From NCBI RefSeq assembly GCF_012516435.1, contig NZ_CP051216.1:2188001-2252000 (forward strand): a stretch of DNA of 64,000 nt, read 5' to 3'. The notes under the pieces are model-generated. The model had not been told where the DNA came from. It saw only the letters and a list, made by a program, of their open reading frames with translations, and did no database searches. Shown here piece by piece: positions 1,408-45,040 of this stretch; the stretch's first letter is position 1; each line of letters opens with the position of its first letter. This DNA comes from Pseudodesulfovibrio sp. zrk46 (GTDB lineage: Bacteria > Desulfobacterota > Desulfovibrionia > Desulfovibrionales > Desulfovibrionaceae). Both the position numbers and the translations under genes were made by a program.

Positions 1408-1415
1408 GATGCCCT

Positions 1416-2567
1416 CTATTTCCCGACCGCTTCGCTGAATTCTTTCACGGTATCTTTCCATGCCTTGGTGTTCGTTGTCCCTTTCCATGCCAGTCGGGGG
1501 TCCATCTGAACTATCAGCGTATCCTGTATGACCTGATGCATTGCGTAGCCCAGTTTGGAGAGCTTGCGGATGGAGCCGAGAATCAGCGGCTTGCTGATGC
1601 CTGCCGCATCGATTTTCTTGAGGCTCACCACGATGTAGTTGTTGAACTTGACGTTGGCCAGCAGGAAACTGAGAGCCTTTCGATCGCTGTTGTTCAGTCG
1701 CTCGTCATTGGTGATGGTCAGCAGCATTCCCTGATTGCTGGAGATGGAACGGTTGGTCTCTATGGTGGGTTTGAGCTTGTCTTCCTGATCGGCGATGGAC
1801 AGGATGCCTCCATCCAGAAACGCGTAGTCAAAGTAGCCGTAGCTCTCGAGGAAATATTGGAGCCAGCGAACCTGCTTGCCCACAGCGTCAAAGAACAGCA
1901 GCTTCTTTTCGGTCCAGATGCGGGAAACGACCAGCTCCATCAGGGAATCCAAGGGTATGTTTCGGATATGCGGGAGCTTCGGAACATCCTCGCGCTGGAA
2001 CGGGTCGCGGATATCTATGACTATGGAATTCCCTGCTTCTGCTTCTTTGGCAAAGGTCGTGTAATCATGGAGCCGCTCGTTGAACTGGCGGTCCGAAATG
2101 ATTCGGTTGGGCCGGGCCGGAGTCTCGCCCATGAGCGTCGCTTTGTCGGGAGCGGCGAGAATCCAGTCGAAGATGCCGCCGTCGTATACATAAACATCGG
2201 TGAAGCCCAGAGAGATGGCGAGCTGTGCTGCCTGATAGCTTTTGGCGCAGGTGTGCCCATTGCAGTAGAAAATGAGCGGGGTGGGGTCGTCCTTGGGACG
2301 GAGGCGCTCCAGTTTCTCTGGAAAGGCCGGATCATTGAGCGGGAGCAGGAAGGCCCTGTTGATACGGGCCACGTCGTACTCAAACCGGGACCGGATATCC
2401 ACCACGCGAGTGGAGAAGTAGTCGTCCAGCAGTTGCTCCGTGGTGATGTACGGTACCTCCGGGTAAAAGGCGCGCAAGGGGTAGGAGTCCCCTTCGCTTG
2501 CCATTGCCGGAAGAGCCATCAGTATAGCCGCAAGGGCTATACACAACATGCTGCGGACGTGAACCAT
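1416..2567 (-). CDS. Exported protein with two rhodanese domains
   Basis: Protein of 383 residues with a signal peptide ending near residue 23 (ALPAMAS). The first rhodanese domain (about 40-150) has VVDIRSRFEYDVARI and an active-site loop beginning at C102 (CNGHTCAKS), so it could carry a persulfide. The second domain (about 165-270) has VIDIRDPFQRED, but the loop reads FFDAVGKQVRW with no cysteine, so it is probably inactive. The last 110 residues match nothing I recognise. The gene starts 2 nt after the hydrolase stop and ends 8 nt before the binding-protein start, so it is in the same operon. Sulfur transfer or sulfur sensing in the periplasm is plausible; the substrate is unknown. Confidence 0.85.
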   Translation of the reverse strand: MVHVRSMLCIALAAILMALPAMASEGDSYPLRAFYPEVPYITTEQLLDDYFSTRVVDIRSRFEYDVARINRAFLLPLNDPAFPEKLERLRPKDDPTPLIFYCNGHTCAKSYQAAQLAISLGFTDVYVYDGGIFDWILAAPDKATLMGETPARPNRIISDRQFNERLHDYTTFAKEAEAGNSIVIDIRDPFQREDVPKLPHIRNIPLDSLMELVVSRIWTEKKLLFFDAVGKQVRWLQYFLESYGYFDYAFLDGGILSIADQEDKLKPTIETNRSISSNQGMLLTITNDERLNNSDRKALSFLLANVKFNNYIVVSLKKIDAAGISKPLILGSIRKLSKLGYAMHQVIQDTLIVQMDPRLAWKGTTNTKAWKDTVKEFSEAVGK

Positions 2568-2569
2568 GG

Positions 2570-3082
2570 CTATTCCTGTCCTGTGAATTTTTCGAGGAAG
2601 TGACTGAACAGCGTGCCGATGGTTGGGATGCTCTCCGACAACCGGTGTCCATCAGGCAGGATGTGCAGGTCGGCACGGTGCTGCTTGGAAAAACGGATGG
2701 AGCCGTCCACATCAACCACGTCGTCCTGCCAGCCGTGAACCACGGAAATGGTCTCAGGCAGGTTGGAGAAGACATGGATGGCGTAGCCGGGCAAATAAAA
2801 GGCCGGCGCCAGCAGGAACAGGCCTGCGACATCAAGCTGTTTGGCGGCAGCGGCGGCAACGTAACCGCCCATGCTGGAGCCAGTGAGAATGACCGGCCCG
2901 GGAGCGTCTTGCAGTGATTCAACGAGGAATTCCACACGGTCATCCGGGTTTTCCATGGACTGGAAATCAGGGGCGTCGAGGGTGAGGCCAGCGTTGGCAG
3001 CTATTTCGGAAAGTGCCTTGCTCTTGTCTCCCCAGGGCTGGCTGAGGGATCCGTGGCACCAGATCAGGGTCGCTTGGGTCAT
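2570..3082 (-). CDS. Small alpha/beta hydrolase (YqiA/UPF0227-like esterase)
   Basis: Protein of 170 residues, short for the fold, similar in size to YqiA-type esterases. The nucleophile elbow is G68-S-S70-M-G-G. The acid is in the QDDVVDVD stretch (D120/D121) and the histidine in DGHRLSE (H146), so the triad is complete. LIWCHGSLSQPWG gives the oxyanion strand. An ATG at 3088 is also in frame, but the GGAG sits 1 nt from it and 7 nt from the ATG at 3082, so I prefer 3082. It lies 38 nt after the hybrid kinase and 2 nt before the rhodanese gene. It has no signal peptide, so it is cytoplasmic. Substrate unknown. Confidence 0.82.
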   Translation of the reverse strand: MTQATLIWCHGSLSQPWGDKSKALSEIAANAGLTLDAPDFQSMENPDDRVEFLVESLQDAPGPVILTGSSMGGYVAAAAAKQLDVAGLFLLAPAFYLPGYAIHVFSNLPETISVVHGWQDDVVDVDGSIRFSKQHRADLHILPDGHRLSESIPTIGTLFSHFLEKFTGQE

Positions 3083-3120
3083 ACTCATGCTCCGGTTTGT
3101 GGGTGTTTGATGGGATCGTA

Positions 3121-5424
3121 TTACACAGAGTCTAATCGTTCAATGTATTCGGAAAGAACCTTCAATATTTGCTGGACATGTTCCGGGTCATTGCCGTTGT
3201 CCACCGCATTCTTGAGCGCGTCTCCGTAGCCGGAGACAGTCTCGAGATTTAACATCTCCCCCTGTTGGCTCAAGGTGTTTGCCTTTTCCAGCAGGGTAGG
3301 GATGTCCTTTTGATCAACGGCTGCAAATGCCGCCAATATCGTTTGCCGCAAATCCTCGGGGGCCAAGGATGCTGTGGGAGCCTCCTGTTCTGGTGTTGAG
3401 CCCTGAACAGGGTCTGCCGTTTGTTCGGAGGTGTTGTCAGGCTGCGTAATGGCACGAAGGCGGTCGAAGAGGGTGCTCTTCTTCACAGGCTTGGCTACGT
3501 GGTCGTTAGCTCCTGCCGCAAGGCACTTTTCCGTGTCTTCGGGGTGGGCGAATGCGGTCATGGCGATGATGGGCGTCGGGGGCAAGTTCTGGGCCGCCTC
3601 CCACTTACGGATGGCGCGGGTGGCCTGATAGCCGTCCATTTCCGGCATTTGAATGTCCATGAGCACAACGTCGTACTGGTTCTCGTGGAACAGCTCCAAA
3701 CCCGCTTCACCGTTTTCTGCCACCGTCAGGGTGCAGGGTGAATTCTGCAGGTAGGTCTGGATGACAAAGGCGTTGTACTTGGAATCCTCCATCATGAGGA
3801 TGTTCAGCGTCGGCAGTTCGGGGGCCCTGGTGACGGCGACGGTTTTACTCACAGAGGGAGCACTTATGGAGAGGGGAGTGAAACAGGCCGTGAACAGGAA
3901 GGTGCTCCCATTGCCCACGGAGCTTTCGGCCCATATGCGGCCACCCATCATTTGCACCAACTGTTTGCTGATGGCCAGGCCGAGGCCCGTGCCGCCAAAC
4001 TTGCGGGTGGTGGAGCTGTCTGCCTGGGTGAATGACTCAAAGATGGAAGAGAGCTTGTCCGGAGGGATGCCCGGGCCTGTGTCCATGACAGAGAACTGGA
4101 TCAGCACGTCGCGACCGGTGGTGTTGGGAGTCTTCTCCACCAACAAGTGAATGGTGCCGCTGTCAGTAAACTTCAGGGCGTTGCCGAGCAGGTTGAGCAG
4201 AATCTGGCGCAATCGGGTGGGATCGCCTTCAAGTCGGTCCGGCACATCCGGGGTGATGAAGCAGGAGAATTCCAGTCCCTTCTGCTGGGCCTTGGGTTCC
4301 ACCACGTTGCATGCCTTATCCACGGTCTCGGACAGGCTGAAGCTAGTGCTCTCCAAAGTCAGGTGGCCTGCTTCGATCTTGGACAGGTCGAGGATGTCGT
4401 CCAGAATCTCCAGCAGACTCTCGCCAGCGGTGCGGAAGACCTGAACATACTTGGCCTGGTCCTTGGTCAGTTCTGTCTCCCACAGGATGTCGGCCATGCC
4501 GAGGATGGCGTTCATTGGCGTACGGATTTCGTGACTCATGCTGGCCAGAAAACGGCTCTTGGCAAGGTTGGCGACTTCGGCGGACTTTTGCGCCGTGCGA
4601 ACCTCTTCCAAGGCTTGGTTCAGGGAAATGTTTTTTTGCTTGAGCTCGTCAGTGCGTGTCTTGACCGTGTTTTCCAGCGCGTTCTTGTGATCCGCCAGCC
4701 GGGTGTTGGCCTCGCGCAGGTCCTGAATGAGATGGCGAACGGATTCGCGCATGTCGTCGATGGCGCGGGCAAGGGTCCCCAGCTCACCGGGGAGATTGGT
4801 GTTGATGGGAGCTTCAAGTTCTCCGTCGGCAATGGAGATGGCTGATTCTTCCAACTGCTTGAGTGGTCCGAAGATGCGCTTGCGGGAAAAGAACAGGGTG
4901 GTCTGCGAAATGGCAAGGATCAACGCCATTCCGAGAGCGAGAGTGCCCAAGGCGTTGACCAGCAGGTCGTGTCGGTAAGTGGCGGTATTGGACGCAATAT
5001 TGAAGGTGCCGATCCATTCGCCGTACTTGCGGATCTCCACTGTGCGGGTGCGGAAGTCGCTGTCTTTTTCAAAGGACTGGAACGAGCGGCCTGCGAACCG
5101 GGGTTTGGCCTTGGAGGCCATGGTTTCCCGGCCGGTGACAACCTGTGCGAAGACCACGGATTCGTCTCGAAGTACGGCATCAATGAAGTCGCGAGCCGAG
5201 GCGTGGTCCACCTGCCATACTGCCGAGGCCAGGCTGGTCTCGCCCAGCAGGGCGATGCCGTCGAGACGATGCTCTACCTGCCTGTTGAGGCGGTAGGCAT
5301 TGAATATGATAATGGCGGCGGAAAACAGGAGTACGACGACGGTGGTTGTGGCCGTCTGTACGAGTGCTGCTTTCCTGCCCAGAACGTCTGAGGCTCTTCG
5401 TCTGGGCTTCTGATCCTTGTTCAT
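3121..5424 (-). CDS. Hybrid sensor histidine kinase with receiver and degenerate HPt-like tail
   Basis: Protein of 767 residues. Order: TM1 (about 25-45), a short periplasmic sensor, TM2 (about 160-180), HAMP (to about 235), a coiled coil with a second helix, HisKA with H298 in SHEIRTPMN, an HATPase domain with LLNLLGNALKFTD, DTGPGIP and GGTGLGLAIS, and a receiver with phospho-acceptor D590 (LMDIQMPEMDG). The receiver's acidic pocket reads MMED, so one of the usual two acidic residues is kept next to a Met. The last 75 residues are helical and resemble an HPt domain in which the phosphohistidine is replaced (EKANTLSQQ). First gene of the probable operon running to base 1; the ligand is unknown. 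Confidence 0.92.
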   Translation of the reverse strand: MNKDQKPRRRASDVLGRKAALVQTATTTVVVLLFSAAIIIFNAYRLNRQVEHRLDGIALLGETSLASAVWQVDHASARDFIDAVLRDESVVFAQVVTGRETMASKAKPRFAGRSFQSFEKDSDFRTRTVEIRKYGEWIGTFNIASNTATYRHDLLVNALGTLALGMALILAISQTTLFFSRKRIFGPLKQLEESAISIADGELEAPINTNLPGELGTLARAIDDMRESVRHLIQDLREANTRLADHKNALENTVKTRTDELKQKNISLNQALEEVRTAQKSAEVANLAKSRFLASMSHEIRTPMNAILGMADILWETELTKDQAKYVQVFRTAGESLLEILDDILDLSKIEAGHLTLESTSFSLSETVDKACNVVEPKAQQKGLEFSCFITPDVPDRLEGDPTRLRQILLNLLGNALKFTDSGTIHLLVEKTPNTTGRDVLIQFSVMDTGPGIPPDKLSSIFESFTQADSSTTRKFGGTGLGLAISKQLVQMMGGRIWAESSVGNGSTFLFTACFTPLSISAPSVSKTVAVTRAPELPTLNILMMEDSKYNAFVIQTYLQNSPCTLTVAENGEAGLELFHENQYDVVLMDIQMPEMDGYQATRAIRKWEAAQNLPPTPIIAMTAFAHPEDTEKCLAAGANDHVAKPVKKSTLFDRLRAITQPDNTSEQTADPVQGSTPEQEAPTASLAPEDLRQTILAAFAAVDQKDIPTLLEKANTLSQQGEMLNLETVSGYGDALKNAVDNGNDPEHVQQILKVLSEYIERLDSV

Positions 5425-32456: not shown

Positions 32457-33254
32457 TTAGTAAATACCTTTTCGCCGATACATTCTCGAAACAACCAATT
32501 CGATAATCACGAATAACCCCACCGGAACCGTCAGAAAGACCAGCGTCAGCAACGAGCCGAGGCTGCGGTCGGAAGAGTTGAGGTAGGGGAACAGGTAGCC
32601 GGTGAAGGAGTCAACGGCACCGCCGCCGATGAGGAAGACGAGAAAGTATTCGGAAAAGGCCACCAGAAAGACCACGGAGCCGCCTGCGATGGCGGCAGGC
32701 ATGAGCATAGGCAGGTCGACTTGCAGAAATCGTTGGATTGGCCCGGCACCCAAGTTCTTTGCGCATAGTTCGAACTCTTCGCCGAATGCCTGATACCCCG
32801 CGGTCAGGGCGCGGAGCATGTACGGGTAGCTGAATATGGTCAGCACCATCACGATGCCGATGAAGGTGTCGGCCAGCCCTGCCTTGATGAACAGGAAGTG
32901 GACGCCCATGGAAAAGGCCATGGACGGTACCAGCGCCGGGGCCAGAAAGAGTCCTTCCATCAGTGCTTTCCCTTTGAAATGGCGACGGGCGAAATGGTGA
33001 GCCGGGGCGATGCACAGGCCAAAGGAGAGCAGGACCGCCAGCAGGGAGTAGGCCAGTGACGAGAGCATGTGTTGCGTCACTGGGCCAGCCTGTGAGGCGA
33101 GAAAGTGCACCGCGCGCAGATCGAATTTGGCCGGAATCAGGTCAGGGAATTTCCAGCCCGGAGCCACCGCATAGAGCGCCAGCACCGACAAGGGGAGCAG
33201 GGAGGCGGCTGCGATGACCGAGAAGATGAGCGTACGGTAGAGGTGCGACATCAC
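32457..33254 (-). CDS. ABC transporter permease (YnjC/ThiP-like), second half
   Basis: Protein of 265 residues with six TM helices. The EAA loop that contacts the ATPase reads ALTAGYQAFGEEFELCAKNLGAGPIQRF. It belongs to the thiamine/iron/spermidine importer permease group. Its start overlaps the stop of the first permease by 4 nt. In E. coli YnjC the two permease halves are fused; here they are separate. Last gene of the operon. Confidence 0.9.
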   Translation of the reverse strand: MMSHLYRTLIFSVIAAASLLPLSVLALYAVAPGWKFPDLIPAKFDLRAVHFLASQAGPVTQHMLSSLAYSLLAVLLSFGLCIAPAHHFARRHFKGKALMEGLFLAPALVPSMAFSMGVHFLFIKAGLADTFIGIVMVLTIFSYPYMLRALTAGYQAFGEEFELCAKNLGAGPIQRFLQVDLPMLMPAAIAGGSVVFLVAFSEYFLVFLIGGGAVDSFTGYLFPYLNSSDRSLGSLLTLVFLTVPVGLFVIIELVVSRMYRRKGIY

Positions 33255-34135
33255 AGCTTCCTGTCCTTGCCGCTCAAGCGGGCGGCGATGCGGGTGTAGG
33301 CCACGATGAAGCCGAGGGAGAAGATCACCATGCAGACCAGAATGGCCATGGCCACCGGACGGTTGATGAGGTCGCGCCGGAAGTAGAGATTGTAGACCTC
33401 CATGCTGAGCATGCCGGGCGAGCTCTCGCTGAGCAGGAAGGGGATATCAAAGGCCCCGAAGGCGTACAGAAACAGGATGATGGACGCGGTGTGCAGGGCC
33501 GGGCGCATGTGCGGCAGGGCCACCCGAAAGAAGATGGTTGCCGGACCAGCACCGAGCATGGCTGCGGTCTGTACCAGCCTCGGGTCCAGCCGCTTGAGCA
33601 CGGCAAAGGCGAGGATGATGACGAACGGCACTTCCTTGTACACGTAGGCGAGGATCATCCCTGCACCGCTGCCCCCGTGAATGACCGAGGGGAAGTCCTG
33701 CACCGTGTTTACCAGTCCGAGATGGTGGCCGATAGAGGCCATGATGCCGGACTGGCTCCAGAATATCAGCACGATGAAGGCCACGGCGATGTGCGGCAGG
33801 ATGAGCGGCACCTTGTAAACCACCGAGAGCCGTTCCAGCCGTTCGGGGAGCCGCCAGATGAGATAGGCGAACACCGCGCCGAGAGCTACTGAGATTGCGG
33901 TGGCAACAGCGGCCACCCACAACGAGTGGGCGGCCGATGCAAGAATGTGCGGGCGTAACAGTTCCCCATAGGCCGCGAACAGGCCTCCTTCATGGGGGAC
34001 GGGCAGCCAGAAACCGAGGGATTGGGCCACGGTCATGGCGAGCCCGCCCAGAAAGAGCAGGGCCAGCGGGATCAGGAGTGGCGACAGTTTGAGCAGTGTC
34101 CTGCCCGCAGTGGCTTCAGTCCTACCTGAGGACAT
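33251..34135 (-). CDS. ABC transporter permease (YnjC/ThiP-like), first half
   Basis: Protein of 294 residues with six TM helices. The EAA loop reads VQTAAMLGAGPATIFFRVALPHMRP. GGGAGGAGA lies just before the ATG, inside the end of the binding-protein gene, which it overlaps by 14 nt. It forms the membrane channel with the next gene. Confidence 0.92.
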   Translation of the reverse strand: MSSGRTEATAGRTLLKLSPLLIPLALLFLGGLAMTVAQSLGFWLPVPHEGGLFAAYGELLRPHILASAAHSLWVAAVATAISVALGAVFAYLIWRLPERLERLSVVYKVPLILPHIAVAFIVLIFWSQSGIMASIGHHLGLVNTVQDFPSVIHGGSGAGMILAYVYKEVPFVIILAFAVLKRLDPRLVQTAAMLGAGPATIFFRVALPHMRPALHTASIILFLYAFGAFDIPFLLSESSPGMLSMEVYNLYFRRDLINRPVAMAILVCMVIFSLGFIVAYTRIAARLSGKDRKL

Positions 34136-35363
34136 TCTCCTCCCAGCCCTTTTCCAGAGCTTCCAGGTATTCCGCCGGGATCTCCGGCAGAGACTGCTTG
34201 GACAGTTCTTCCGGTGTCAGCGTGGCTGCGCCGAGGTCCATGGCATCGAATTGCTTGCGCTCTTCTTCAGGGAGCATATTGACCACGATGGCCGGGAAGT
34301 CTCCCCAGTTGGAGGGATCAAGCTTGGAGAGCTGGGCTTCGGGAGACATCAGGAAGTTGGCCGCCACCATGGCGCCAGCCTTGTTGGGCGCGTTCGCCGG
34401 GATGGCCGTGAAGTGGAGGTTGAACAGGCTGCCTTCATTCATGATGAAGGTGCGAACCGAGTCGGGATAGGTGCCGTCCAGAATCTTGGATTGGGCGTGC
34501 AGCGGGTGGTAGGACATGTTGATGTCTACCTCGCCGCGGGCGAACAGGGTGTCCAGTTCGGCAGAGCCCTTGGGGTAGGACTTGCCTTCCTGCCACAGGT
34601 ACGGCTTCAGCTCATTCAGGTATGCCCAGAGCTTGGGGGCATTTTCATTGAAGAGGTTTTCATTCCAGCCGTGCATATACTGATCGGGACCGCCAGAAAC
34701 CGCATAGAATGCCTGACGAATGAAGGCGGAGCCGGTGAAATCCGGAGGCTGCGGATAGGTGAACTTGCCGGGGTGGGCTTTGACCCATTCGAGCAGATTC
34801 GTGAAGCTCTCAGGGTGCTCCAGCGTACGAGCTGAATCGAACTCGAAGACATACATGGCGCGGCCATACGGGGTTTCATATCCCTCGACAGGGTAGCCGA
34901 AGTCGAACCCGGCCAGCCCCTTGTCCACATACTTGTTGAAGTTGGGCAGTTTGTCCGCATAGGGACCGAACAGGGTGCCAGCTTCCTTGGTAGCCTTGAA
35001 GTTCTCGCCGTTGATCCAGAGGAGGTCGATGGAGCCAACGGTCTTGCCTGCGCTCTTTTCCGTGATCAGCTTGTTCACGAAAACACCGGCGTCCATTGGG
35101 ACGCGCACCAGCTTGATGTCGTAGCGGTCCTTAAGTTCCTTGGCCACATAGTTGTCGATCCAGTTGTTCACGTGCGCAAAGCCGCCATACATGTAGAACC
35201 GGACCTCGGTGCCGTGGGCCTGCTTTTCAATATCGTTCCATGAAGTGTCCAGCAGTTTGACGTGGGGTTCGGCGTTCTCTTTGTGCGGTGCTTCTCCGCA
35301 ACCGGCCATAAGCAATGCCGCCATGAGCATGACCGCTACGGTGATGTTCATTACAAATCGCAT
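34122..35363 (-). CDS. ABC transporter binding lipoprotein (YnjB-like)
   Basis: Protein of 413 residues. A lipobox (LLMAGC, cysteine 21) marks it as an outer-leaflet lipoprotein. The mature type 2 binding fold has WNDIEKQAHGTEVRFYMYGG, AKELKDRYDIKLVRVPMDAG, LLWINGENFKATKEAGTLFG and VNMLPEEERKQFDAMDLG, which together look like YnjB of E. coli. YnjBCD is usually labelled a putative thiamine importer, without proof of substrate. Its ATG abuts the stop of the ATPase gene. Confidence 0.9.
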   Translation of the reverse strand: MRFVMNITVAVMLMAALLMAGCGEAPHKENAEPHVKLLDTSWNDIEKQAHGTEVRFYMYGGFAHVNNWIDNYVAKELKDRYDIKLVRVPMDAGVFVNKLITEKSAGKTVGSIDLLWINGENFKATKEAGTLFGPYADKLPNFNKYVDKGLAGFDFGYPVEGYETPYGRAMYVFEFDSARTLEHPESFTNLLEWVKAHPGKFTYPQPPDFTGSAFIRQAFYAVSGGPDQYMHGWNENLFNENAPKLWAYLNELKPYLWQEGKSYPKGSAELDTLFARGEVDINMSYHPLHAQSKILDGTYPDSVRTFIMNEGSLFNLHFTAIPANAPNKAGAMVAANFLMSPEAQLSKLDPSNWGDFPAIVVNMLPEEERKQFDAMDLGAATLTPEELSKQSLPEIPAEYLEALEKGWEENVLR

Positions 35364-36311
35364 TTATTCTCCCTCCTCGGTGGTGTTGGCTAAGATGTCC
35401 ACCCTGTCGCCGACGGAAAGGCCGTTGTTGGCTGCATGGGTGGTGATATGGGTGCCGTCGATGTCGACGGTGTACTTCGTGTATTGCCCGGCAAAGGTGA
35501 TATCCGTGAGGACACCCATACCGTCCGGGCGGGCTGTAACGTGCAAATCCTGCGGGCGGGCATATCCCAGATGCGTGTCCAGCCCGATACGTTTGGACAG
35601 GGCGACTGGGAGTTCGTTGACCGGGCCTAGGAAACGGGCCACTTCCAGACTGGCCGGTTGTTCGTATACTTCACGAGCCGGTGCGAACTGTGCCAGTTGA
35701 CCATCCAGCATCACGCCCACGTGATCGGACATGAGGGACGCCTCCTCCTGATCGTGGGTCACGGCAATGGTGGTGACGCCAAACGCCTTTTGCGTGTCGC
35801 GGATGAACTCGGCCGTGGATGTCTTGAGGTTGCGGTCCAGATTGGCAAAGGGTTCGTCCAGCAGCAGAATGGCCGGATTGACTACCATGGCGCGGGCAAT
35901 GGCCACGCGCTGTCGCTGTCCTGCGGATAGCGTGACAGGGTAGTCGTTGCGCTTGTCCGCCAGATTGAAGAAATCCAGCAGCTCCATGACGCGGCGTTCG
36001 GTCTCGGCCTTGGCGATCTTGCGCGCCTTCAGGCCAAAGGCCACGTTGTCGAAAACCGTCAGGTTGGGGAAGAGCAGGTAATCCTGAAACACCAGAATGA
36101 CTGGGTTGTCCTTGTCAGGCGGTGTGCCGAAGATGAGCTTGCCGCTGTCAGCTTCTTCCAGCCCGGCGATGATCTTGAGCAGGGTGGTCTTGCCCACGCC
36201 GGACGGGCCGATGAACGAGGCGATGTCACCCTTGTCCACGGCAAAAGTGACGTCACGCAGAACAGGCTGCCCATCAAAGGATTTGGCTATGCCTTCTGCG
36301 CGAAGAAACAT
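35364..36311 (-). CDS. ABC transporter ATPase (YnjD/PotA-like)
   Basis: Protein of 315 residues. Walker A GPSGVGKTT, Q-loop VFQDYLLFPN, signature [15 protein letters not shown] (Ala in place of the first Gly), Walker B ILLLDEPFANLD and the switch H in AVTHDQEEA. A C-terminal regulatory TOBE-like domain (about 235-315) follows, as in PotA/CysA. The ATG at 36311 lies inside the end of the kinase gene (25-nt overlap) with GGGAG at 10 nt; the open frame extends further upstream without support. Confidence 0.92.
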   Translation of the reverse strand: MFLRAEGIAKSFDGQPVLRDVTFAVDKGDIASFIGPSGVGKTTLLKIIAGLEEADSGKLIFGTPPDKDNPVILVFQDYLLFPNLTVFDNVAFGLKARKIAKAETERRVMELLDFFNLADKRNDYPVTLSAGQRQRVAIARAMVVNPAILLLDEPFANLDRNLKTSTAEFIRDTQKAFGVTTIAVTHDQEEASLMSDHVGVMLDGQLAQFAPAREVYEQPASLEVARFLGPVNELPVALSKRIGLDTHLGYARPQDLHVTARPDGMGVLTDITFAGQYTKYTVDIDGTHITTHAANNGLSVGDRVDILANTTEEGE

Positions 36312-37300
36312 TCCATGTCTCCCAGATATTGCTCGATGCGGGCAAAGGTGTCCGCATTCTTCAGGGCGCGGTCGTCGCGCGTGTATTCGTAGTAGGCCAT
36401 GAAGCACCATGACATGGCGCGCAGCAGGATGGTTCGCTCCATGAGATCGGTCAGGCGCAGGGCCGTGTCCAAATCCATGTCCAGCCCGGCCTCGTCAAGG
36501 TAGGCAGCCACAAAATTTTTCTTGCCCTCATCGGTGAAGCGGAAGTCCGTCTTCCACAGCGTCGTGGTGGGCACGAGGAAATGTCCGATGTCCTGAAAAC
36601 GACTGGTGACGACTGCTTTTTCCCAGTCAACCAGCCAGCCGCGCCCGGTCTCGTCATCGATGATGAAGTTGTGCGAGTTGACCTCGGTGTTGGCGATGAC
36701 CAGCGGATCGCCGCGGAAGTCCTCGGCTGCTTCTTCGGCCAGCCGGGTGATCTCGGCGTGGTAGTCGAGGAGAAGCTGCTTCTGTTTGGTCATCGGATGA
36801 TCGGGATAGCGATGAATGAGTCCTTCGCTCTCCCTGGCGATGTCCAGAATGGGATTGGCCTGCACGATGAGGCTGTGGTCCACGGGTTGTGAATGCACTT
36901 TGGCAAAGATGCGGGCGGCCTCGCGCCAGTCGTTTTCGTATTGCAGCGGGCGACCCGGCAGGTACTCCATGAGCAGCACACCCTTGCCGAGCCCGTCCAG
37001 CTTGGGGTCGGGCTCGCAGTAGAAGGGCCGCGGCGTCACGCCGGAGCGCACCAGCGCGCGGAGCACCGCGAACTCGTACTCGATCTGGTCCTCAAGCCCC
37101 AGTTGGCTGTCGTGATTGATGCGAAAGACGTGGGATGCGTCGCCGTATATCTCGTTGACCGTGATGCGGTAATTCTCATTGTATTCGCCCGCAGCGAGGA
37201 AGGATATATGCTCCTCGGGGTCGTCCAAGACCACCCATTTGCGGGTCTCTAGAAATGTAGTGATAGCCTCTATGGTGTCCATAAATTCGATTGATAGCAA
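36287..37300 (-). CDS. Phosphotransferase, APH/choline kinase fold (TTG start)
   Basis: Protein of 337 residues and first gene of the ABC operon. The ATP-binding start region includes YNENYRITV and VFRINHDSQLGLEDQIEYE, and VLLMEYLPGRPL marks the hinge. The catalytic loop reads NTEVNSHN (E206 to N211) where H-G-D-x-x-x-x-N is normal, so the base aspartate is a glutamate; the metal D225-W-E is kept. GGAGGG lies 6 nt before a TTG at 37300, whereas the ATG at 37282 has no ribosome site, so I chose TTG. Family members phosphorylate thiamine, choline or aminoglycosides; with this importer a thiamine- or choline-like substrate is likely. Confidence 0.82.
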   Translation of the reverse strand: MLSIEFMDTIEAITTFLETRKWVVLDDPEEHISFLAAGEYNENYRITVNEIYGDASHVFRINHDSQLGLEDQIEYEFAVLRALVRSGVTPRPFYCEPDPKLDGLGKGVLLMEYLPGRPLQYENDWREAARIFAKVHSQPVDHSLIVQANPILDIARESEGLIHRYPDHPMTKQKQLLLDYHAEITRLAEEAAEDFRGDPLVIANTEVNSHNFIIDDETGRGWLVDWEKAVVTSRFQDIGHFLVPTTTLWKTDFRFTDEGKKNFVAAYLDEAGLDMDLDTALRLTDLMERTILLRAMSWCFMAYYEYTRDDRALKNADTFARIEQYLGDMECFFAQKA

Positions 37301-37546: not shown

Positions 37547-38662
37547 ATGACGATTTGGCGGTTGTTATGTGCAGGCGGTATGATTGAGATTATTCGACGA
37601 TTTGTCGTGTTGGCGTTGATACTTGTCGGAGGGGCCTTGTTTCTGTGGCCCGGAGACAAGGTCATGGTTGTGAAGCTGGCTGATTTTGAGCGGGGCTACA
37701 CTCAGTATAAACAATGGAAGGAAGAGCATGAGATTCTTCCTTTTGAAGAATACAAATTCCATGCGACCAAGGACCGTCGTCAGGCGGTGAGCGGTGACGC
37801 ATGGACTTCCTTGTTCTCGCGGATGGGGCAACCCGAAGGCGATACGGAGATGATGTCCCGTCGCTTTGGTTACTTCAAAAACGAGTTCGCCTTTTTTGCC
37901 GATGAAGCCCCCTTTGATTCCCTGAAAACAATGCCTCAGGGATATGTGCTCATCGACGGCACAAAGTGGCTATCCTTCCGTTACGATTACCCACAGGAAT
38001 TTCAGGACCTCCCTTATCCATATTGGCGTCCCTTAAAGTGGCAGGGCGTAGCGTTGGTCGTGTTGGGCCTGTGCTTGTACGCCTTTTTACCACGCAGGAA
38101 GTGGGGGGCTGATGCCATTCGCCACTCCAACGGCAGCGCCGTGGTGTCTGCCGACCTGTTGGGACTCATGCTTGCAGCGGGCTTTGGCCTGCTGCCGTGC
38201 CTGATCATCTGGGATAATGTTCCCGGTGCTTCCATTCTGTCCATGGACGGAGGATGGGGCTGGCTCACCATTGCCATGTGGCTGATGGCGTTGTGTGGCT
38301 TGGCGCTGTTGCTGGTAGGTCTGCATTATAGCCGTCTGGCGTACTTCGTGAGTGACGACGGTCTGCGCATTGTCAAGGGCGGACGGGAGTCCGTAGTTGC
38401 GTGGGACGGTATCGAATATTTCCAATCATATGAATCCAAAACTTCGTCCCGGTTGGGGCGGATACTCATCCTGTTTGGCGGCTCGTTGCATGCTGCGGGG
38501 TTGGGTATTGCCATGCAGCACAACAACGAAGTTGGCATTCGGGTCCATGCTGCGGACGGCAGGATTTTCAAGATCATGGCCAACGGATTGAGTCGGTTTG
38601 ATGAGATCGAAGCTGCACTCAAGTCACACGGCGTGAAGAGAAAACGTAAAGGTTCCAAATAG
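37547..38662 (+). CDS. Membrane protein of unknown function with PH-like C-terminus
   Basis: Protein of 371 residues. TM segments lie at about 16-34, 165-183, 200-222 and 238-262. Between the first two is a soluble domain of about 120 residues with FERGYTQYKQWKEEHEILPFEEYK. The C-terminal 95 residues (YFVSDDGLRIVKGGRESVVAWDGIEYFQSYES onward) look like a bacterial PH-like domain. GGGGGAAG precedes the ATG. It lies 22 nt before the giant exported protein gene, same strand, and opens the unknown five-gene cluster. I do not recognise a named family. Confidence 0.7.
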   Translation: MTIWRLLCAGGMIEIIRRFVVLALILVGGALFLWPGDKVMVVKLADFERGYTQYKQWKEEHEILPFEEYKFHATKDRRQAVSGDAWTSLFSRMGQPEGDTEMMSRRFGYFKNEFAFFADEAPFDSLKTMPQGYVLIDGTKWLSFRYDYPQEFQDLPYPYWRPLKWQGVALVVLGLCLYAFLPRRKWGADAIRHSNGSAVVSADLLGLMLAAGFGLLPCLIIWDNVPGASILSMDGGWGWLTIAMWLMALCGLALLLVGLHYSRLAYFVSDDGLRIVKGGRESVVAWDGIEYFQSYESKTSSRLGRILILFGGSLHAAGLGIAMQHNNEVGIRVHAADGRIFKIMANGLSRFDEIEAALKSHGVKRKRKGSK

Positions 38663-38684
38663 AGAAGAGATGACGGAGAGAGAG

Positions 38685-41600
38685 ATGCGTGTATGGGTCA
38701 AAATTTGTGCTGTAACCTTACTGGTTGCGCTGACGACTGTCGTTATGGGCAGCGTCGCCTTGGCAGGTGAATCATCCATTGTCGGAGAATGGAAACGGGC
38801 GGATGGCCACGCTGTGAAATTTTCTCAGGATGGCGACCAGATCGTGGGCGTCATCACCGAGTTGGGGCCGGTTGGCGCTTATGGTTTCACCGAAGGGGAG
38901 ACAACGTTCAGGCTCAAGCCCACGGATGATCCCAACGTCTTTTCCGGCGAGATCAAATGGCGCTGGCAGGGTAGTGACAAGCAGGAGTGGAAGCCCCAGA
39001 CCATGACGGTCTCGGGTGACAGTCTTTCCGGTGCCGGAACATGGGAGCGGCTGTCCGTTGCGGATTCCCTGCTGTCGTCTGCTTCCAGCCTGTGGGGCGA
39101 GGCAAAGGCCAAGACCGAAGAGGTCATGGCTTCCGAAGAGATGCAGGCTGCCAAGCAGAGCGCTGGCGAGCTGTGGGACAAGACCAAGGAGAAATCTTCC
39201 GAGGTGATGCAGTCTGAAGAGATGCAGGCTGTCAAGGAACAGGCCGGGGAAGCCTGGGATGCGACCAAGGAAACGACTTCCGAGGTCATGGCTTCGGATG
39301 AAGTGCAGGCGGCAAAACAGGTGGTCATGAGTTGGTACGACAAGCTCATGGCGTCGCTGTTCGGTGTGGATTCCATCAAGTCGCCGAGTCCTGCAGACGG
39401 TATCCCCATCCCGCAAATCGAGTGTGCATTCATCAATGAACACAGCGACGAGGGATACGGTTTCACCAATGTGAAGGAACAGTATTTTGTGGGTGAGACC
39501 CTGCTGGTTGGATACGTCGGTCCTGAAAGCAGCCCTGCATGGTATGGACTGTTCGCCCCCGGCAAAGCGGTAAAGGATCAAAGTGTCCAGTTTGGCACTG
39601 AGATAGATGGCCGCCGACTGGGTGGTGCCAAGTATGGCGTGGTGCCGGTAAATGTGCCGCCCAAACCCGGTTGCTATGAATTGATCATGACCAACGATAC
39701 GTCCAAGGAGGCGGTGGTCATGGCGCGCACTACTATCAAGGTGGTGCCGGATGAGGACTCTCCTGTTCCTGCCGTATTCATTCCCAGAACAGTCTTTGCT
39801 CCCGGCGAGATGATTGCCGTGGAAGCCCCTGCCAATGATTTATGGCCGAAAGCCTTCGTTATGATGGTTCCGGCTGAGGTGCCGCACGGAGATTATATCG
39901 TGGCATCAAGCAAGCGTAAGGGATCAAAGGGGCTTGGTGATGTGCGCGACGGCGTCATCAGTATGGCTGCCCCCCGCGAAAAGGGATTGTATTCTCTTCG
40001 TGTTTTCACGGAAGGAAGCAGACGGGGGCAGGAGCTGGCCCATGTTGATTTTGAAGTAAGGGATATTCAGTGGAGCGGTGAACCCAAGATCGCGCTGGAT
40101 TCGGAATCCTATGAAGCCGGGAAGGGCTTCTCGCTGGTGTTCAACGCCATGCCGGACTGGCACCCCAAGGCGTGGATCGCTTTGGTGCCGGCCGATGCGC
40201 CTGATGCCAATGGTGGAGAAGCGGACAAGGTGGACGTCGCCTATCTCAATCTCCAGCAGAAGAAGACCGGGGCCTGGTATGTCGTGGCACCCAAGCAGCC
40301 CGGGAAATACGAGTTTCGTATGTTCCCTTCTCGCAACGCTGACAAGGCAGTCTTGAAAGCTGGCTTTGAAGTGGCGCTTCCCGAGGGGTACGCTGACAGG
40401 AAACCGTCAATGACGATCGTTTCTCCCACCACGTACACCTTTGATCCGCTGGTCGTGGATTATGTCGCGCGAAAGGACTGGTCGTCCGATTCCTGGTTCG
40501 GGCTGATGCGACCAGACGCTCCGAGAAATACGCATGAAGCATACAAAGTTGCGCTGGGAAAAAAGCAACTCAAGTTCGCGGATGAAGGGACGCAGACCTT
40601 TTCTCTCCCGGCCGAGCCGGGGTCGCTTGAATTGCGCATGTACGGCGGCCCGGACGCCAATGATCTGATCCTGACCGTGCCTGTCGAGGTGGTCGCGCAG
40701 CCGGATGTCGCTGCAGCCGAGGCCACGGCAGATGCTGAGGCTCAGGAGTTCCTCGACTCACTGCCTGATTACGAGGAGTTCGATATCTCCGACGAGCAGT
40801 TCGAGCAGTTCATAACCGTGCCTGAGATGCCGGATATCCCGCTCACCTCCAGTGCGGGCGAGGGCGCTCTCAAGATGTGTAATTCCGGTGTTCAGGTGGC
40901 TGAACTCAGGAAGCAACTCATCCAACTGGCTAACTACTATTATCCTGACCAGCCCATCTACACCTACGCGGATGTGACGGAGATGACTCCGCCCATGCTG
41001 GTGCAGCCCGTGGCGAATAGAGAATTGGACGCCGATTGCATCGACCGTGAAATCGACACCATGACCAAGCTGGATCTGACCCTTGGGCGTGACAACAAGT
41101 TCGCAGAGTCGCTTCAGAATCTGGGGCTGACCCTTATTACCAAGTGGAATCTTCCCACGAAGACGGGTGAGAAACTGACCAAGGCCATCAATGTCGCCGT
41201 GGACACCTACAACCATGGTGGTGCTTCCATCGCGGCAATCAAGAAGGGTAATTATTCGGATGCCGTTTTTCAGGCCGTGACCGTTGTGGTCAAGAATATG
41301 GTCACGGCATGCGGCAGTCCTGATTGCATGAGTTCCGTTCGTAATTCGGCTGACCAGTTACTCACCAAGTACGTGGCCAAATTGCCCGCCGGAAAGAAAG
41401 CAGCGTTTCTGAACAAGATGCGTTCGGCGCTCGGGAGTGACCCCTTCATCAAGCGTCTGGACGAAATGGAAGACGCCATGAACGTGGGGCTGAACGTGGA
41501 TACCGGCACCGGAGTGGTTGAGGCCAACAGTGGCGACTATCGCCGTGCCATCTGGACATTCACTTCCTCCGCCGCCCAGATTCATCCCGCTACGGCAACG

Positions 41601-42647
41601 GCCGTGGCCGTGGGAACTGCTGGGTACGAGGGCATGGTTGCCGTGCGCGACATGCTTGTCGATGAGACCACGCAGAATCTCTACAAGGGGTACAAGTTCG
41701 CCTTTGACGGCGGCAAGGAGGGCGATGCTGTCTGGGCTGGTCTCAGTCAGGGCTATGCCTATCCGTACGCCAAGGTGCGGGAAATGATGATCAAGAACCC
41801 CACCAACCCCATGGTGCGCAAAGCCCTGACCGAAGGGCACCGAATCCGCAATCTGGCGGGTGGTGCTGCCAAGCTCAAGGCAGATCAGATCAGCGAAGCC
41901 GAAGTGGAGGCATACCTCAAGGATCAGTTTGAGGCATGGCGCACCGCAGAGAAGAAGAACACCAAGTTCAGCCGTCAGTTGCAGGAGTACAAGCGCGACT
42001 TCGATAATCTGGAATGCCTTTCCGCCATGTCGAACACCATGAAGAAGGCTCGCGACGAGAAGGGCTTCTTCGGGCGAACCAAGGACAGCTGGAACAACTA
42101 TTGGGCTGGCTCCTGTGATGATGCCAAGACCTTTGCTGCCTACGCCAAGATTCGCAACGACATCGATGCCGAGTTGAAAAAGTGGAGCGAAGGCAAGGGC
42201 TGTCAGAAGATGTCCCAGAACTATCAGTCCAAGAAGCTCGCCTGTACGTTGATGGATGGTGGCGCCGGGGCCTACCGCGTGAGAATGGCCAAGATGGCCA
42301 AGGACTGCGGTTGGAAGCCTTCCGTGCAGCATTACGCCCAGATGAACTACGCCAACAAGCTGGTCAAATTGAATAAATATGAAAAAGTGGCCATCAAAGT
42401 GCTGACCAAGATAGGTCGGACGGACCTTCTGCACTGTATGTGCCGCCATAACAGCCCGTTCCATTCGAACGGATATCATCCTCAAAAGACCAAGGGACGC
42501 AGTCCCTCATGTGATAATGGCAGCGGTCCATGCATCGGCGGTGAATGGGGCTGTGGACGATACAGCTTCAGGCCCGGTGCAGCCAAGGCATGCAACGTGG
42601 CCGGAGCCATTGCCGACTACAAGAAGAACCTGAAGAACAAGAAGTAA
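38685..42647 (+). CDS. Giant exported protein with repeats, Ig-like modules and Cys-rich end
   Basis: Protein of 1320 residues with a signal peptide (cleavage near VALAG, residue 28). Residues 30-125 resemble a small beta-barrel (GEWKRADGHAVKFSQDGDQI). Three tandem 27-residue helical repeats follow (136-216). Then come about four beta-sandwich modules (about 250-680) sharing a W-x-P-K-A-W-I-A-L-V-P-A-D-like core. An acidic linker (DYEEFDISDEQFEQF) leads into a large helical region and a Cys-rich C-terminus (HCMCRHN, PSCDNGSGPC, GEWGCG). About 17 cysteines remain after the signal, suggesting disulfides or metal. The ATG at 38685 has GGAG at 6-7 nt and starts the signal peptide. Probably surface or periplasmic; function unknown. 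Confidence 0.8.
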   Translation: MRVWVKICAVTLLVALTTVVMGSVALAGESSIVGEWKRADGHAVKFSQDGDQIVGVITELGPVGAYGFTEGETTFRLKPTDDPNVFSGEIKWRWQGSDKQEWKPQTMTVSGDSLSGAGTWERLSVADSLLSSASSLWGEAKAKTEEVMASEEMQAAKQSAGELWDKTKEKSSEVMQSEEMQAVKEQAGEAWDATKETTSEVMASDEVQAAKQVVMSWYDKLMASLFGVDSIKSPSPADGIPIPQIECAFINEHSDEGYGFTNVKEQYFVGETLLVGYVGPESSPAWYGLFAPGKAVKDQSVQFGTEIDGRRLGGAKYGVVPVNVPPKPGCYELIMTNDTSKEAVVMARTTIKVVPDEDSPVPAVFIPRTVFAPGEMIAVEAPANDLWPKAFVMMVPAEVPHGDYIVASSKRKGSKGLGDVRDGVISMAAPREKGLYSLRVFTEGSRRGQELAHVDFEVRDIQWSGEPKIALDSESYEAGKGFSLVFNAMPDWHPKAWIALVPADAPDANGGEADKVDVAYLNLQQKKTGAWYVVAPKQPGKYEFRMFPSRNADKAVLKAGFEVALPEGYADRKPSMTIVSPTTYTFDPLVVDYVARKDWSSDSWFGLMRPDAPRNTHEAYKVALGKKQLKFADEGTQTFSLPAEPGSLELRMYGGPDANDLILTVPVEVVAQPDVAAAEATADAEAQEFLDSLPDYEEFDISDEQFEQFITVPEMPDIPLTSSAGEGALKMCNSGVQVAELRKQLIQLANYYYPDQPIYTYADVTEMTPPMLVQPVANRELDADCIDREIDTMTKLDLTLGRDNKFAESLQNLGLTLITKWNLPTKTGEKLTKAINVAVDTYNHGGASIAAIKKGNYSDAVFQAVTVVVKNMVTACGSPDCMSSVRNSADQLLTKYVAKLPAGKKAAFLNKMRSALGSDPFIKRLDEMEDAMNVGLNVDTGTGVVEANSGDYRRAIWTFTSSAAQIHPATATAVAVGTAGYEGMVAVRDMLVDETTQNLYKGYKFAFDGGKEGDAVWAGLSQGYAYPYAKVREMMIKNPTNPMVRKALTEGHRIRNLAGGAAKLKADQISEAEVEAYLKDQFEAWRTAEKKNTKFSRQLQEYKRDFDNLECLSAMSNTMKKARDEKGFFGRTKDSWNNYWAGSCDDAKTFAAYAKIRNDIDAELKKWSEGKGCQKMSQNYQSKKLACTLMDGGAGAYRVRMAKMAKDCGWKPSVQHYAQMNYANKLVKLNKYEKVAIKVLTKIGRTDLLHCMCRHNSPFHSNGYHPQKTKGRSPSCDNGSGPCIGGEWGCGRYSFRPGAAKACNVAGAIADYKKNLKNKK
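39090..39332 (+). repeat. Three tandem 81-bp coding repeats
   Basis: Three exact-length units of 27 codons encode residues 136-162, 163-189 and 190-216 of the giant protein. The shared pattern is L/A-W-x-x-x-K-x-K-x-x-E-V-M-x-S-E-E-M-Q-A. Trp at 137, 164 and 191 repeats at the same register. They should form a long amphipathic helix. Confidence 0.85.
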
Positions 42648-42670
42648 CCAAACAATACCGGAGGATTGAT

Positions 42671-43534
42671 ATGTCTCTCAAAGGCAAGTTCGACATCACG
42701 GCATCGAAGACGGCTCCTGACGGGACCGTGTTCGAGATTCTGGAATTGCAGGAACTCAAGGGCTACTGGAACACCTTTGCGGCGGAACGTCTGTATTACG
42801 CCAACAAGGCGGGTATGAAGGCCAAGGTGGTCCGCATCCGTCTGGATAATTCTTCCATTCGCCTGGAGCCGGGTGCGCTCTATTTCATGCAGGGCAATCT
42901 GGAGATGAAGACCAGCAGCGGCGGCGGCATGATGAAGGGCCTCCTGCGCAAGACCCTGACGGGCGAGACCTTCTTCGTCAATGAGATCTGCGGTACCGGT
43001 GATGTCTATCTCGAGCCGACCTTCGGGCACTACTTCCTGCACGACATCGGCGGTCTCGAAGGCGGCGTGGTCGTGGACAAGGGGTACTTCTTCGCAGGCA
43101 GCGGCGAGCTCGACATTGCCATCAACAAGGAAAAGAAGATGTCCGCCGGTTTCTTTGGTGGCAAGGGGTTCTTCTCCACCAAGATCTCCGGCATCGGCGT
43201 GGCTGTGGTGCTTTCGCCCGTCCCGCTCGACGAAGTGGAGATCATGGATCTCAGCGGCGGCAAGCTTTCCGTGGACGGCAGCTTTGCCTTCATGCGCTCG
43301 GAAAGCGTTCAGTACACCGTGGAAAAATCCAGCAAGTCCTGGCTGGCTACCTCGGTCTCCGGTGAAGGGTTGCTCCAGACCTATTCCGGCGCGGGCAAGG
43401 TGTGGATGGCTCCCACCCAGTCCATCTACGAGCAGTTGACGGCAGTGCCCGGAGGCATGGCCTCAGCAATGCGTGGCGGCGGAGGCGGCGGTGGTGACGA
43501 TGACGATGATTACGATGACGGCGATGACGATTAG
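42671..43534 (+). CDS. AIM24/TIGR00266-type beta-helix protein with acidic tail
   Basis: Protein of 287 residues with no signal peptide. The beta-rich repeat fold of the AIM24 family is suggested by IRLEPGALYFMQGNLEMKTS, GETFFVNEICGTGDVYLEP, GGLEGGVVVDKGYFFAGSGELD, KGFFSTKISGIGVAVV and GEGLLQTYSGAGKVWMAPTQSIYEQ. A tail of seven Gly followed by an Asp-rich run (DDDDDYDDGDDD) is added. GGAGG lies 6-7 nt before the ATG. Bacterial AIM24 proteins have no settled function; the yeast protein shapes the inner mitochondrial membrane. A role in envelope organisation is inference. Confidence 0.85.
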   Translation: MSLKGKFDITASKTAPDGTVFEILELQELKGYWNTFAAERLYYANKAGMKAKVVRIRLDNSSIRLEPGALYFMQGNLEMKTSSGGGMMKGLLRKTLTGETFFVNEICGTGDVYLEPTFGHYFLHDIGGLEGGVVVDKGYFFAGSGELDIAINKEKKMSAGFFGGKGFFSTKISGIGVAVVLSPVPLDEVEIMDLSGGKLSVDGSFAFMRSESVQYTVEKSSKSWLATSVSGEGLLQTYSGAGKVWMAPTQSIYEQLTAVPGGMASAMRGGGGGGGDDDDDYDDGDDD

Positions 43535-43597
43535 ATCGCTTGACCCGTAAGGGGAGAGTAAGGGTATCAACATCAAAAGTATGGGAGAGAGAAGAGA

Positions 43598-43786
43598 ATG
43601 GATTTTGAAAGCTTAATTGGCCTGTTGATCATGCTTGGCTTCATCTTCTTCGTGATCAAATTCAACAAGAAGAAGAAAAAGAAGAAGCGTAAGAAGGGAC
43701 GCAGAGGCGGAGGCGGTACCAGCCGTCATAATGAACATCTTGATAATGAAGACGATTACGACGACGGCGGCGGAGACGACGATTAG
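43598..43786 (+). CDS. 62-residue membrane polyampholyte
   Basis: A very small protein in four blocks: one TM helix (SLIGLLIMLGFIFFVIKF, residues 5-22), a run of lysines and arginines (25-36), a Gly run with a short linker, and an acidic tail DDYDDGGGDDD. The tail copies the end of the AIM24 protein encoded just upstream. The TM followed by positive charges predicts a cytoplasmic C-terminus. GAGAGAAGAG precedes the ATG. No family recognised. It may bind the AIM24 protein or a negatively charged partner through the Lys block (inference). Confidence 0.72.
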   Translation: MDFESLIGLLIMLGFIFFVIKFNKKKKKKKRKKGRRGGGGTSRHNEHLDNEDDYDDGGGDDD

Positions 43787-43802
43787 CCTTTGAGAGAATG
43801 TG

Positions 43803-43830
43803 CCGCGCCCGGATTGCCGGGCGCGGTTTT
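43803..43830 (+). terminator. Hairpin plus T run just before the next start (possible attenuator)
   Basis: CCGCGCCCGG / CCGGGCGCGG is a perfect 10-bp stem with an ATTG loop and TTTT. It lies only 17 nt after the previous stop and ends 10 nt before the next ATG, whose GGAG follows directly. It should reduce read-through into the last gene. Confidence 0.65.
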
Positions 43831-43839
43831 GGAGAGCGC

Positions 43840-44970
43840 ATGAAGACCCTATTGTATTCCCTTGTCATGGTGGCCCTGATGGCCACGGCCGCGCCCGCGT
43901 CCTCACTGGAGGCCATTTGGAGCGACGTTCATCCCAGGCTGTCCAAGGCTGTGGCCGAGTTGGAGCAGCGAGGCAATGTCCCGGACTCGTCATGGAATCC
44001 GTTCGAGGCAGACAAGGATAGCGTGGACGACGACATCAATGACTTGCTGGACGAGTGCATCGAGGTGCTCGGCATCTCCGACATGGCTACCATCAAGGCG
44101 GCCATTCAGGAGTTGCAGAAGGATTCTCGCCATTGTCGCGAAACCGTGGCAGAGCTCAAGACCGAGCGTCTGGCCGCACCCAAGAAGGTGGAGAAGTGGG
44201 AGCTCTGGAAAAAGGACGTTTCCACCATTGATGAAGAGATCGCATCGCTCACGGCTCGGGAAAAGGATAATACCCGCAGGGTGGAAGAACTCGTAGACCA
44301 ACTGCTGGCAGAAATGCGCAAGCTCGGCATGAATGTCGACCGTGAGCAGGTGGAGACACTGGTCTACTCAGTCACGGGTTCCGATGATGTCCAGATGGTT
44401 TCCGTGTTCAACAACGTCAAGCTCATCACCACCGAGTTGCAGCGACTCACGTCCGAGGCCAACGAAAACATCGAGATGGCAAAGCGCTACTACGGTATGC
44501 ACACCTTGCTGCTGCGTATCCTGTTGAACCTGTATCAGCAGTATGAGCACAAGATTGACGAGGTATACCTTGTGCGCATCGAGGAGATTGTCGAGAAGCA
44601 GGAAGACCTGATGGATGAAACCGAGGACAAGATTTCCGACGAGCCGGAGAAATTTCGCGAAATTTACGAGGCCAACCTCAAGGCTCAGACATTGACCCGG
44701 GATACGGCCAATCTCTATGCAGACTACCTGAAGAAGAATCGGGAGCGCATCGTGGACGCCCGAGAGAAGGTGGCTGACGAGTATGATGCGGCTCTCAATA
44801 CGTATCAGACCGTGCAGGGGGCGCATAACCTCATCGCCCTCATGCGCGATGCCAACGCCATGCTCGAACGCATGTCCGGGCTGCAGACCCCTGAGCTCAT
44901 GGTTTTTCAAAACGTTGAGATGCGTAACGAGTTCCGCAAGCTCTCCGCAAAGCTGGGGGCTGAAGGGTAA
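43840..44970 (+). CDS. Periplasmic helical (coiled-coil) protein, function unknown
   Basis: Protein of 376 residues with a signal peptide (MKTLLYSLVMVALMATAAPAS). The mature protein is almost all helix and strongly charged: ELQKDSRHCRETVAELKTE, EEIASLTAREKDNTRRVEELVDQLLAEMRKL, QYEHKIDEVYLVRIEEIVEKQEDLM, DYLKKNRERIVDAREKVADEYDAAL. Only two cysteines. GGAG precedes the ATG at 43840. Same strand as the four genes upstream, last in the cluster and followed by a strong terminator. It may act as a periplasmic scaffold for the giant exported protein (inference). Confidence 0.72.
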   Translation: MKTLLYSLVMVALMATAAPASSLEAIWSDVHPRLSKAVAELEQRGNVPDSSWNPFEADKDSVDDDINDLLDECIEVLGISDMATIKAAIQELQKDSRHCRETVAELKTERLAAPKKVEKWELWKKDVSTIDEEIASLTAREKDNTRRVEELVDQLLAEMRKLGMNVDREQVETLVYSVTGSDDVQMVSVFNNVKLITTELQRLTSEANENIEMAKRYYGMHTLLLRILLNLYQQYEHKIDEVYLVRIEEIVEKQEDLMDETEDKISDEPEKFREIYEANLKAQTLTRDTANLYADYLKKNRERIVDAREKVADEYDAALNTYQTVQGAHNLIALMRDANAMLERMSGLQTPELMVFQNVEMRNEFRKLSAKLGAEG

Positions 44971-45000: not shown

Positions 45001-45040
45001 AAAAAGGGCCGAGTGTGCAATCTCGGCCCTTTTCTTTTTC
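45001..45040. terminator. Bidirectional intrinsic terminator
   Basis: AAAAGGGCCGAG / CTCGGCCCTTTT around an 8-nt loop, with A and T tracts. It separates the unknown cluster from the convergent RND operon. Confidence 0.9.

Follow-up and report, generated by a model that had tools for sequence, protein, structure and literature searches.

Among described bacterial systems, those closest to the locus reported here are membrane proteins with PH domains and proteins of the AIM24 family. The PH-domain proteins DdE and DdF are reported to be needed for export of enterocin DD14 (PMC8657885), and membrane PHb proteins have been proposed to act as oligomeric transporters or pores (PMC2817789). AIM24 genes adjoin TerD in group I ter (tellurite) clusters, and that report ascribes no role to AIM24 in prokaryotes (PMC5822837); titles and abstract openings from our literature searches likewise describe no function for bacterial AIM24. 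In yeast, Aim24 is reported to be a mitochondrial inner-membrane protein that is tied to cardiolipin and membrane architecture and lacks an ordinary transmembrane (TM) helix (PMC3975624), and this location fits, by analogy, a membrane-bound role for AIM24 here.

We analyzed a window of 64,000 nucleotides from the sulfate reducer Pseudodesulfovibrio sp. zrk46, in which a preliminary description had noted five same-strand genes as a candidate undescribed envelope system. ORF calls placed the genes, g1-g2-AIM24-g4-g5, on the + strand where they had been located, and taking the downstream starts reproduced the gaps given as 22-63 bp (22, 23, 63, and 53 bp):

37547 or 37580-38662, + strand: g1, predicted inner-membrane protein with about four TM helices
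38670-42647, + strand: g2, large, predicted exported multi-domain protein with 18 Cys and 1325 aa, or 1320 aa if translation begins at the ATG at 38685
42671-43534, + strand: g3, AIM24 protein (PF01987, E 6.7e-41, 140.7 bits against a gathering cut-off of 25.7)
43598-43786, + strand: g4, 62 aa, a single predicted TM helix, Lys-rich stretch, then an Asp-rich tail
43840-44970, + strand: g5, predicted exported protein of 376 aa, all-helical in the model
45001-45034: two-way terminator-like hairpin with T-runs, 3' of g5

AIM24 was the only one of the five proteins to match Pfam or NCBIfam above cut-off, while g1, g2, g4, and g5 had no such match, in agreement with the earlier statements that the third gene encodes an AIM24 protein and that the other four belong to no nameable family. 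The cluster had also been described as bounded by terminators or divergent promoters. The hairpin after g5 is consistent with this, whereas a consensus scan detected no + strand promoter-like site between g1 and the divergently oriented gene upstream; the upstream boundary therefore rests on gene orientation. An Rfam scan of the whole window was empty.

Within the genus, a close copy of AIM24 was found in 3 of 36 genomes, i.e., the window, G094, and Salidesulfovibrio brasiliensis, and distant AIM24 proteins were found in two more. The gene order is g1-g2-AIM24-g4-g5 in the window, g1-bigB-g2-AIM24-g4-g5 in G094, and g1-bigB-AIM24-g4-g5 in S. brasiliensis, where bigB encodes another large exported protein. 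Recurrence of this order in two other species of the genus supports the cluster as a real unit. Between the window and G094, identities were 88.9% for AIM24, 80.3% for g5, 57.9% for g2, 56.7% for g1, and 53.2% for g4, as compared to 69-77% for the five genes of a kinase-ABC-transporter operon that flanks the window cluster. We also compared flanking ORFs of at least 100 aa in all frames by blastp at E 1e-10 (74 from the window, 43 from G094, and 54 from S. brasiliensis, one contig of which was counted twice), and at these thresholds no flanking ORF was common to the window and either of the other two genomes. G094 and S. brasiliensis do have one upstream neighbor in common, 80% identical and of channel type by eye. 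Since this neighbor is common to both, their clusters may represent a single inheritance, giving two independent contexts and not three. The channel-type gene (L017:2037-3242 and L056:8533-9660) is divergent from g1, carries a K+-channel filter motif by eye, and was not found among the flanking ORFs of the window. The S. brasiliensis AIM24 gene (L017:8779-9662) reads as two overlapping ORFs, probably owing to a draft-assembly error or a frameshift.

The kinase-ABC operon (window 32457-37300) is kept as a block in all seven other genomes of the genus that were read, with varying upstream neighbors. In G094, some 130 kb separate it from the cluster. Five further genomes (G143, G115, G110, G146, and G126) carry it without the window's efflux gene beside it, and these have no close AIM24, with G126 holding a distant one; G080 also has the operon, its upstream side cut by a contig end, and no close AIM24.

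The slot after g1 is occupied by g2, bigB, or both across the three species. The preliminary description of g2 as a 1320-residue exported multi-domain protein was confirmed, in that g2 has 1320-1325 aa, a signal-like N-terminus by hydropathy, and several domains by sequence, listed here together with the bigB loci:

38760-39044, + strand: N-terminal domain, lipocalin-like by eye only
39087-39329, + strand: coil of three 27-residue repeats, the sole element found common to g2 and bigB
39387-40739, + strand: about four ~105-residue repeats that resemble one another (repeat-to-repeat i-E down to 5e-7)
42390-42644, + strand: C-terminal Cys-rich domain, by sequence comparison
L017:4468-8721 and L056:2955-7220, with relatives at L046-L055 and L083-L087: bigB, predicted exported protein

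The N-terminal domain of g2 had no Pfam match, and the repeat region had none in Pfam or, by sequence search, in the PDB; the label "Ig-like", considered for these repeats, is backed by no Pfam family and was set aside. Pfam also returned, below its cut-off, a scorpion-peptide family for g2 (E 0.0098), which was judged to be a chance match to helical sequence. The Cys-rich domain also occurs in proteins near bigB (L047 and L049), and distant g1 relatives have giant partners that carry it (see below). In the order sample of 120 genomes, g2 was present in 2; bigB was tallied in 13, counting the window, for its coil alone, and G111 (E 2.2e-4). The S. brasiliensis bigB protein, at 1417 aa, resembles g2 solely in the 27-residue-repeat coil, and the two unrelated proteins are swapped in one slot. 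Among the 4329 ORFs searched, this coil was confined to the two g2 and two bigB proteins of the three operons, and it was found in none of the 15 other bigB relatives, among them L087, the N-terminus of which is possibly cut by a contig end. The coil may be the element recognized by the other gene products. Alternatively, it could have been copied between adjacent genes rather than kept for function.

Other families of the order and phylum also hold bigB relatives, two of which (L047 and L049) adjoin a gene for the Cys-rich domain. As an unnamed family of about 1150-1430 aa with a well-conserved C-terminal half, bigB extends to several families of the phylum, and G058 carries two tandem copies. 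A Pfam scan of four bigB-family loci gave TPR and PKD domains in L084 and nothing above cut-off in L017, L047, and L048. When S. brasiliensis was compared with G094, identity in bigB rose from 46-51% over residues 1-290 to 90-91% across the C-terminal half; g2, compared between the window and G094, was 57.6% identical over its last 85 residues, 57.9% over the whole protein, and 46.9% over residues 1081-1240. By these identity profiles, the variable C-terminal tip on a conserved trunk that characterizes polymorphic toxins is absent from bigB and g2.

For g1, the start at 37580 agrees with the starts of its homologs. Hydropathy analysis gave four strong TM segments, with a further, weaker one inside the PH-like part, and g1 is predicted to comprise an extracytoplasmic domain and a C-terminal, cytoplasmic domain:

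38336-38659, + strand: PH-like domain of g1, by fold comparison

The structural model of g1, built from a two-sequence alignment, has a beta-rich C-terminal domain at a mean pLDDT of 46.9. VIA-align rows for the C-terminus comprised PH, FERM, or GRAM-type entries with Z up to 9.3 over 72 and 84 residues, and the FACT chains among them we take to be PH domains. Foldseek gave a best E of 0.0072 on this low-confidence model, in a list that also includes unrelated chains. As modeled at this low confidence, the C-terminus of g1 is a candidate PH-like fold, and the designation "PH-like membrane protein" is consistent with the fold comparison and, for the TM segments, with hydropathy. No Pfam family matched the PH-like domain alone at E 5 or the whole of g1 at E 1. 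Profiles of g1, bigB, and g5 gave only weak or helical chance matches to PDB sequences, and plasmid searches with g1 and bigB were empty. Like the bacterial PH-domain membrane proteins YdbS/YdbT and DdE/DdF, g1 is predicted to be multi-pass with a candidate PH-like domain on the cytoplasmic side, and it adjoins the gene of an exported product; unlike those families, it has no Pfam PH match. In contrast to DdE/DdF and enterocin DD14 export, the five genes include neither an ABC transporter nor a leaderless peptide gene, and g1 is paired with a giant protein whose N-terminus is signal-like.

In the order sample, members of the cluster were also found apart from one another. g5 occurred in 8 of the 120 order genomes, six of which have neither AIM24 nor g2; only G100 among these six has g1, more than 2 Mb from g5. 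AIM24 occurred in 14 of the 120, with 12 distant copies being 26-32% identical to the window protein, and a g4 profile searched at E 1 detected nothing beside these 12 or the two distant genus copies (~1.5 kb of flank). As a set, AIM24-g4-g5 was seen only in one genus in the samples examined. The preliminary description had looked to conserved co-occurrence of at least three genes as support for a system and to genes scattered without a conserved neighborhood as evidence against one. Such co-occurrence was found in three species, with the AIM24-g4-g5 set confined to their genus, and scattering applied to g5, AIM24, and some g1, while the order was kept in the three species.

The association of g1 with a giant exported protein reached further. 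Strong relatives of g1 (E below 1e-10) were found in 14 genomes, and their context was readable in 12, with G283 (contig end) and G570 left out. In nine of these 12, the gene that comes next on the same strand, 7-388 bp after g1, encodes a large protein whose start is signal-like, while G100, G102, and G104 have no large exported protein gene beside g1. Three of the nine loci are in this genus, one is in G006, and five are in genus g209, so that the nine are not independent. The giant partner in G006, from another family of the order, is bigB. Genus g209 is related only at the level of the phylum, and its giants measure 2903-3115 aa, apart from 1936 aa where a contig ends and 2975 aa where the sequence examined stops. 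They are like g2 in size, signal-like start, place directly after g1, and, in four of five, the Cys-rich domain; no named family is common to them, and g2 matched them in the Cys-rich domain alone. A model of this domain built without g209 sequences matched those four giants at E 3.9e-4 to 8.6e-3, and L109 gave no match at E 0.01. Adjacency of g1 and a giant protein is conserved more widely than the AIM24-g4-g5 set.

Just upstream of g1 in four of the five g209 loci (L080, L109, L110, and L112) is a gene of 506-513 aa, a lipoprotein by eye, which was not seen at the fifth (L111); that of L109, the only one tested, has a transglutaminase-like domain. Weak matches to g1 (E 1e-4 to 1e-8) were excluded from the count of nine in 12, i.e., G010, G019, G034, G055, and G067 from the order sample, together with G195 from the phylum sample and G492. 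The G492 match is presumably CydB, and the weak matches therefore include false ones. In G195, the remote g1 relative carries an additional fused domain, and after it comes a small TM protein that matches DUF7489 below threshold. Weak g1-like N-terminal matches also lie near exported proteins of 690-890 aa at L113, L115, and L116, in other families of the order.

These distributions bear on whether there is a system at all. Neighbors co-inherited by accident in a young genus would account for a set found in three species only, two with a common upstream neighbor, and for AIM24, g5, and some g1 occurring alone. We regard this as improbable, since the order is kept although the flanks of the window differ from those of the other two species, the large gene is swapped within the kept order, and g1-giant adjacency recurs in two more genera, of which one belongs to a different family of the order and the other is as distant as the phylum level. 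It is unlikely, though less so, that the giant is the end product of an S-layer-like or adhesive surface structure and the remaining genes are its assembly factors. The repeats, Cys-rich domain, and many Cys of g2 are compatible with such a structure, as are PKD and TPR matches in the distant giant partner L110; however, no surface anchor or sorting signal was recognized, and AIM24 and g4 are predicted to be cytoplasmic or membrane-facing.

The reading that we prefer, at a probability of about 0.38, is that the cluster is an accessory envelope module, in which g1, as a PH-domain membrane protein, would carry out the export, folding, or anchoring of a giant protein with the help of AIM24, g4, and g5. 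It is favored because the commonest association is g1 adjoining a giant exported protein, and because bacterial PH proteins are reported to be required for export of enterocin DD14 or are proposed to form pores (PMC8657885, PMC2817789). The large protein (g2 here, bigB or both elsewhere) would cross the inner membrane by Sec and meet g1 there. By analogy with bacterial PH proteins, g1 would oligomerize and aid onward transport, folding, or anchoring, while g5, helical and periplasmic by prediction, would engage the repeat coil found in both g2 and bigB. Through its Lys-rich stretch, g4 might hold the Asp-rich-tailed AIM24 electrostatically at the cytoplasmic face. We infer the topology, every contact, and the role of this module, and in the earlier phrase "undescribed envelope system" it is the conserved gene order in three species that stands, the envelope role being drawn from predicted locations. 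Weighing against this reading, AIM24 also has a published neighborhood with TerD (PMC5822837) and so is not tied to giant proteins, three of the 12 strong g1 relatives lack a large exported neighbor, g5 and AIM24 are common apart from the rest, G094 and S. brasiliensis may represent one inheritance, the g1 model is of low confidence, and the coil could be a copy passed between adjacent genes.

A bolder version, which we consider fairly unlikely, is an undescribed trans-envelope machine, composed of g1, a cytoplasmic AIM24/polyampholyte layer, and g5, that handles interchangeable giants recognized by their shared coil. If this were true, a bacterial AIM24 subfamily would gain a function and defined partners. 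More generally, the cluster may reveal the partners of some bacterial AIM24 proteins, as one AIM24 subfamily keeps a fixed partner set that differs from the TerD neighborhood. The swap of unrelated giants with one common coil predicts what the partners recognize, and the wider g1-giant adjacency hints at an unnamed class of envelope loci.

The remaining proteins of the proposed giant-protein module are AIM24, g4, and g5. AIM24 scored far above the Pfam cut-off, matched PDB 1yox at E 8.5e-11, and fell below the cut-off of TIGR00266 (77.6 against 96.6). By hydropathy it has no TM segment, and it ends in an Asp-rich tail that is missing from 11 of 12 other AIM24 proteins in the order sample. g4 likewise ends in an Asp-rich tail, has a Lys run next to its TM helix, and is represented by homologs of 73-74 aa in the same slot. 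It resembles the YxzE-like family (PF25184) in having one TM helix followed by a charged low-complexity tail; however, this low-complexity match scored 33.2 bits against a family cut-off of 40, and membership was rejected.

The main rival to the giant-protein module is membrane-stress protection, in which g1, AIM24, and g4 would patch or remodel an attacked inner membrane and the giant would sense or absorb stress. It ranks as such because bacterial AIM24 genes are reported to adjoin TerD in ter clusters, of group I (PMC5822837). It also draws on the reported ties of yeast Aim24 to cardiolipin and membrane architecture (PMC3975624), on Bacillus subtilis YxzE, namesake of the best sub-threshold g4 match, which is listed in the sigma-W regulon alongside the ydbST operon (PMC3498285), and on the PH domain of YdbT. 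We nevertheless find it fairly unlikely, as the g4-YxzE match is low-complexity and below cut-off, and different giants in one slot are left unexplained. Moreover, a Pfam scan of the five genes plus two flanking ones found no member of the TerD family, in contrast to AIM24-bearing ter clusters, and none of the PspA family.

g5 has a signal-like N-terminus by hydropathy and an all-helical model with a mean pLDDT of 54.2. A fold search with this model returned nothing at E 0.001 or better; its non-significant matches (E 0.24 and worse) include tripartite pore-forming toxins, rows that mean little because of the low pLDDT. A marginal PADLOC match of the helical g5 to Csm2 (E 0.0051) was judged to be chance. 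A distant relative of g5, close to DUF4150/DUF2169 genes on a plasmid of Rhodobacter, suggested a link to T6SS, which we discarded since the genes are convergent and the match covers 56% of g5 at 24% identity. Interbacterial antagonism, with the giants as effectors and the small genes giving delivery or immunity, could explain large modular exported proteins in a sporadic cassette and would accommodate the pore-forming-toxin rows. It is highly unlikely nonetheless, considering that conservation in bigB peaks in the C-terminal half, the reverse of what polymorphic toxin tips show, that no g5 fold match reached E 0.001, and that no PADLOC or PHROG family was matched apart from the marginal Csm2.

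Small TM proteins with DUF7489, a domain not named in the literature searched, are encoded near g1- or bigB-type loci (L081:1015-1335 and 1348-3855; L047:7697-8305). The DUF7489 match is below cut-off in L081 and above it in L047, and these proteins are perhaps a stand-in for g4.
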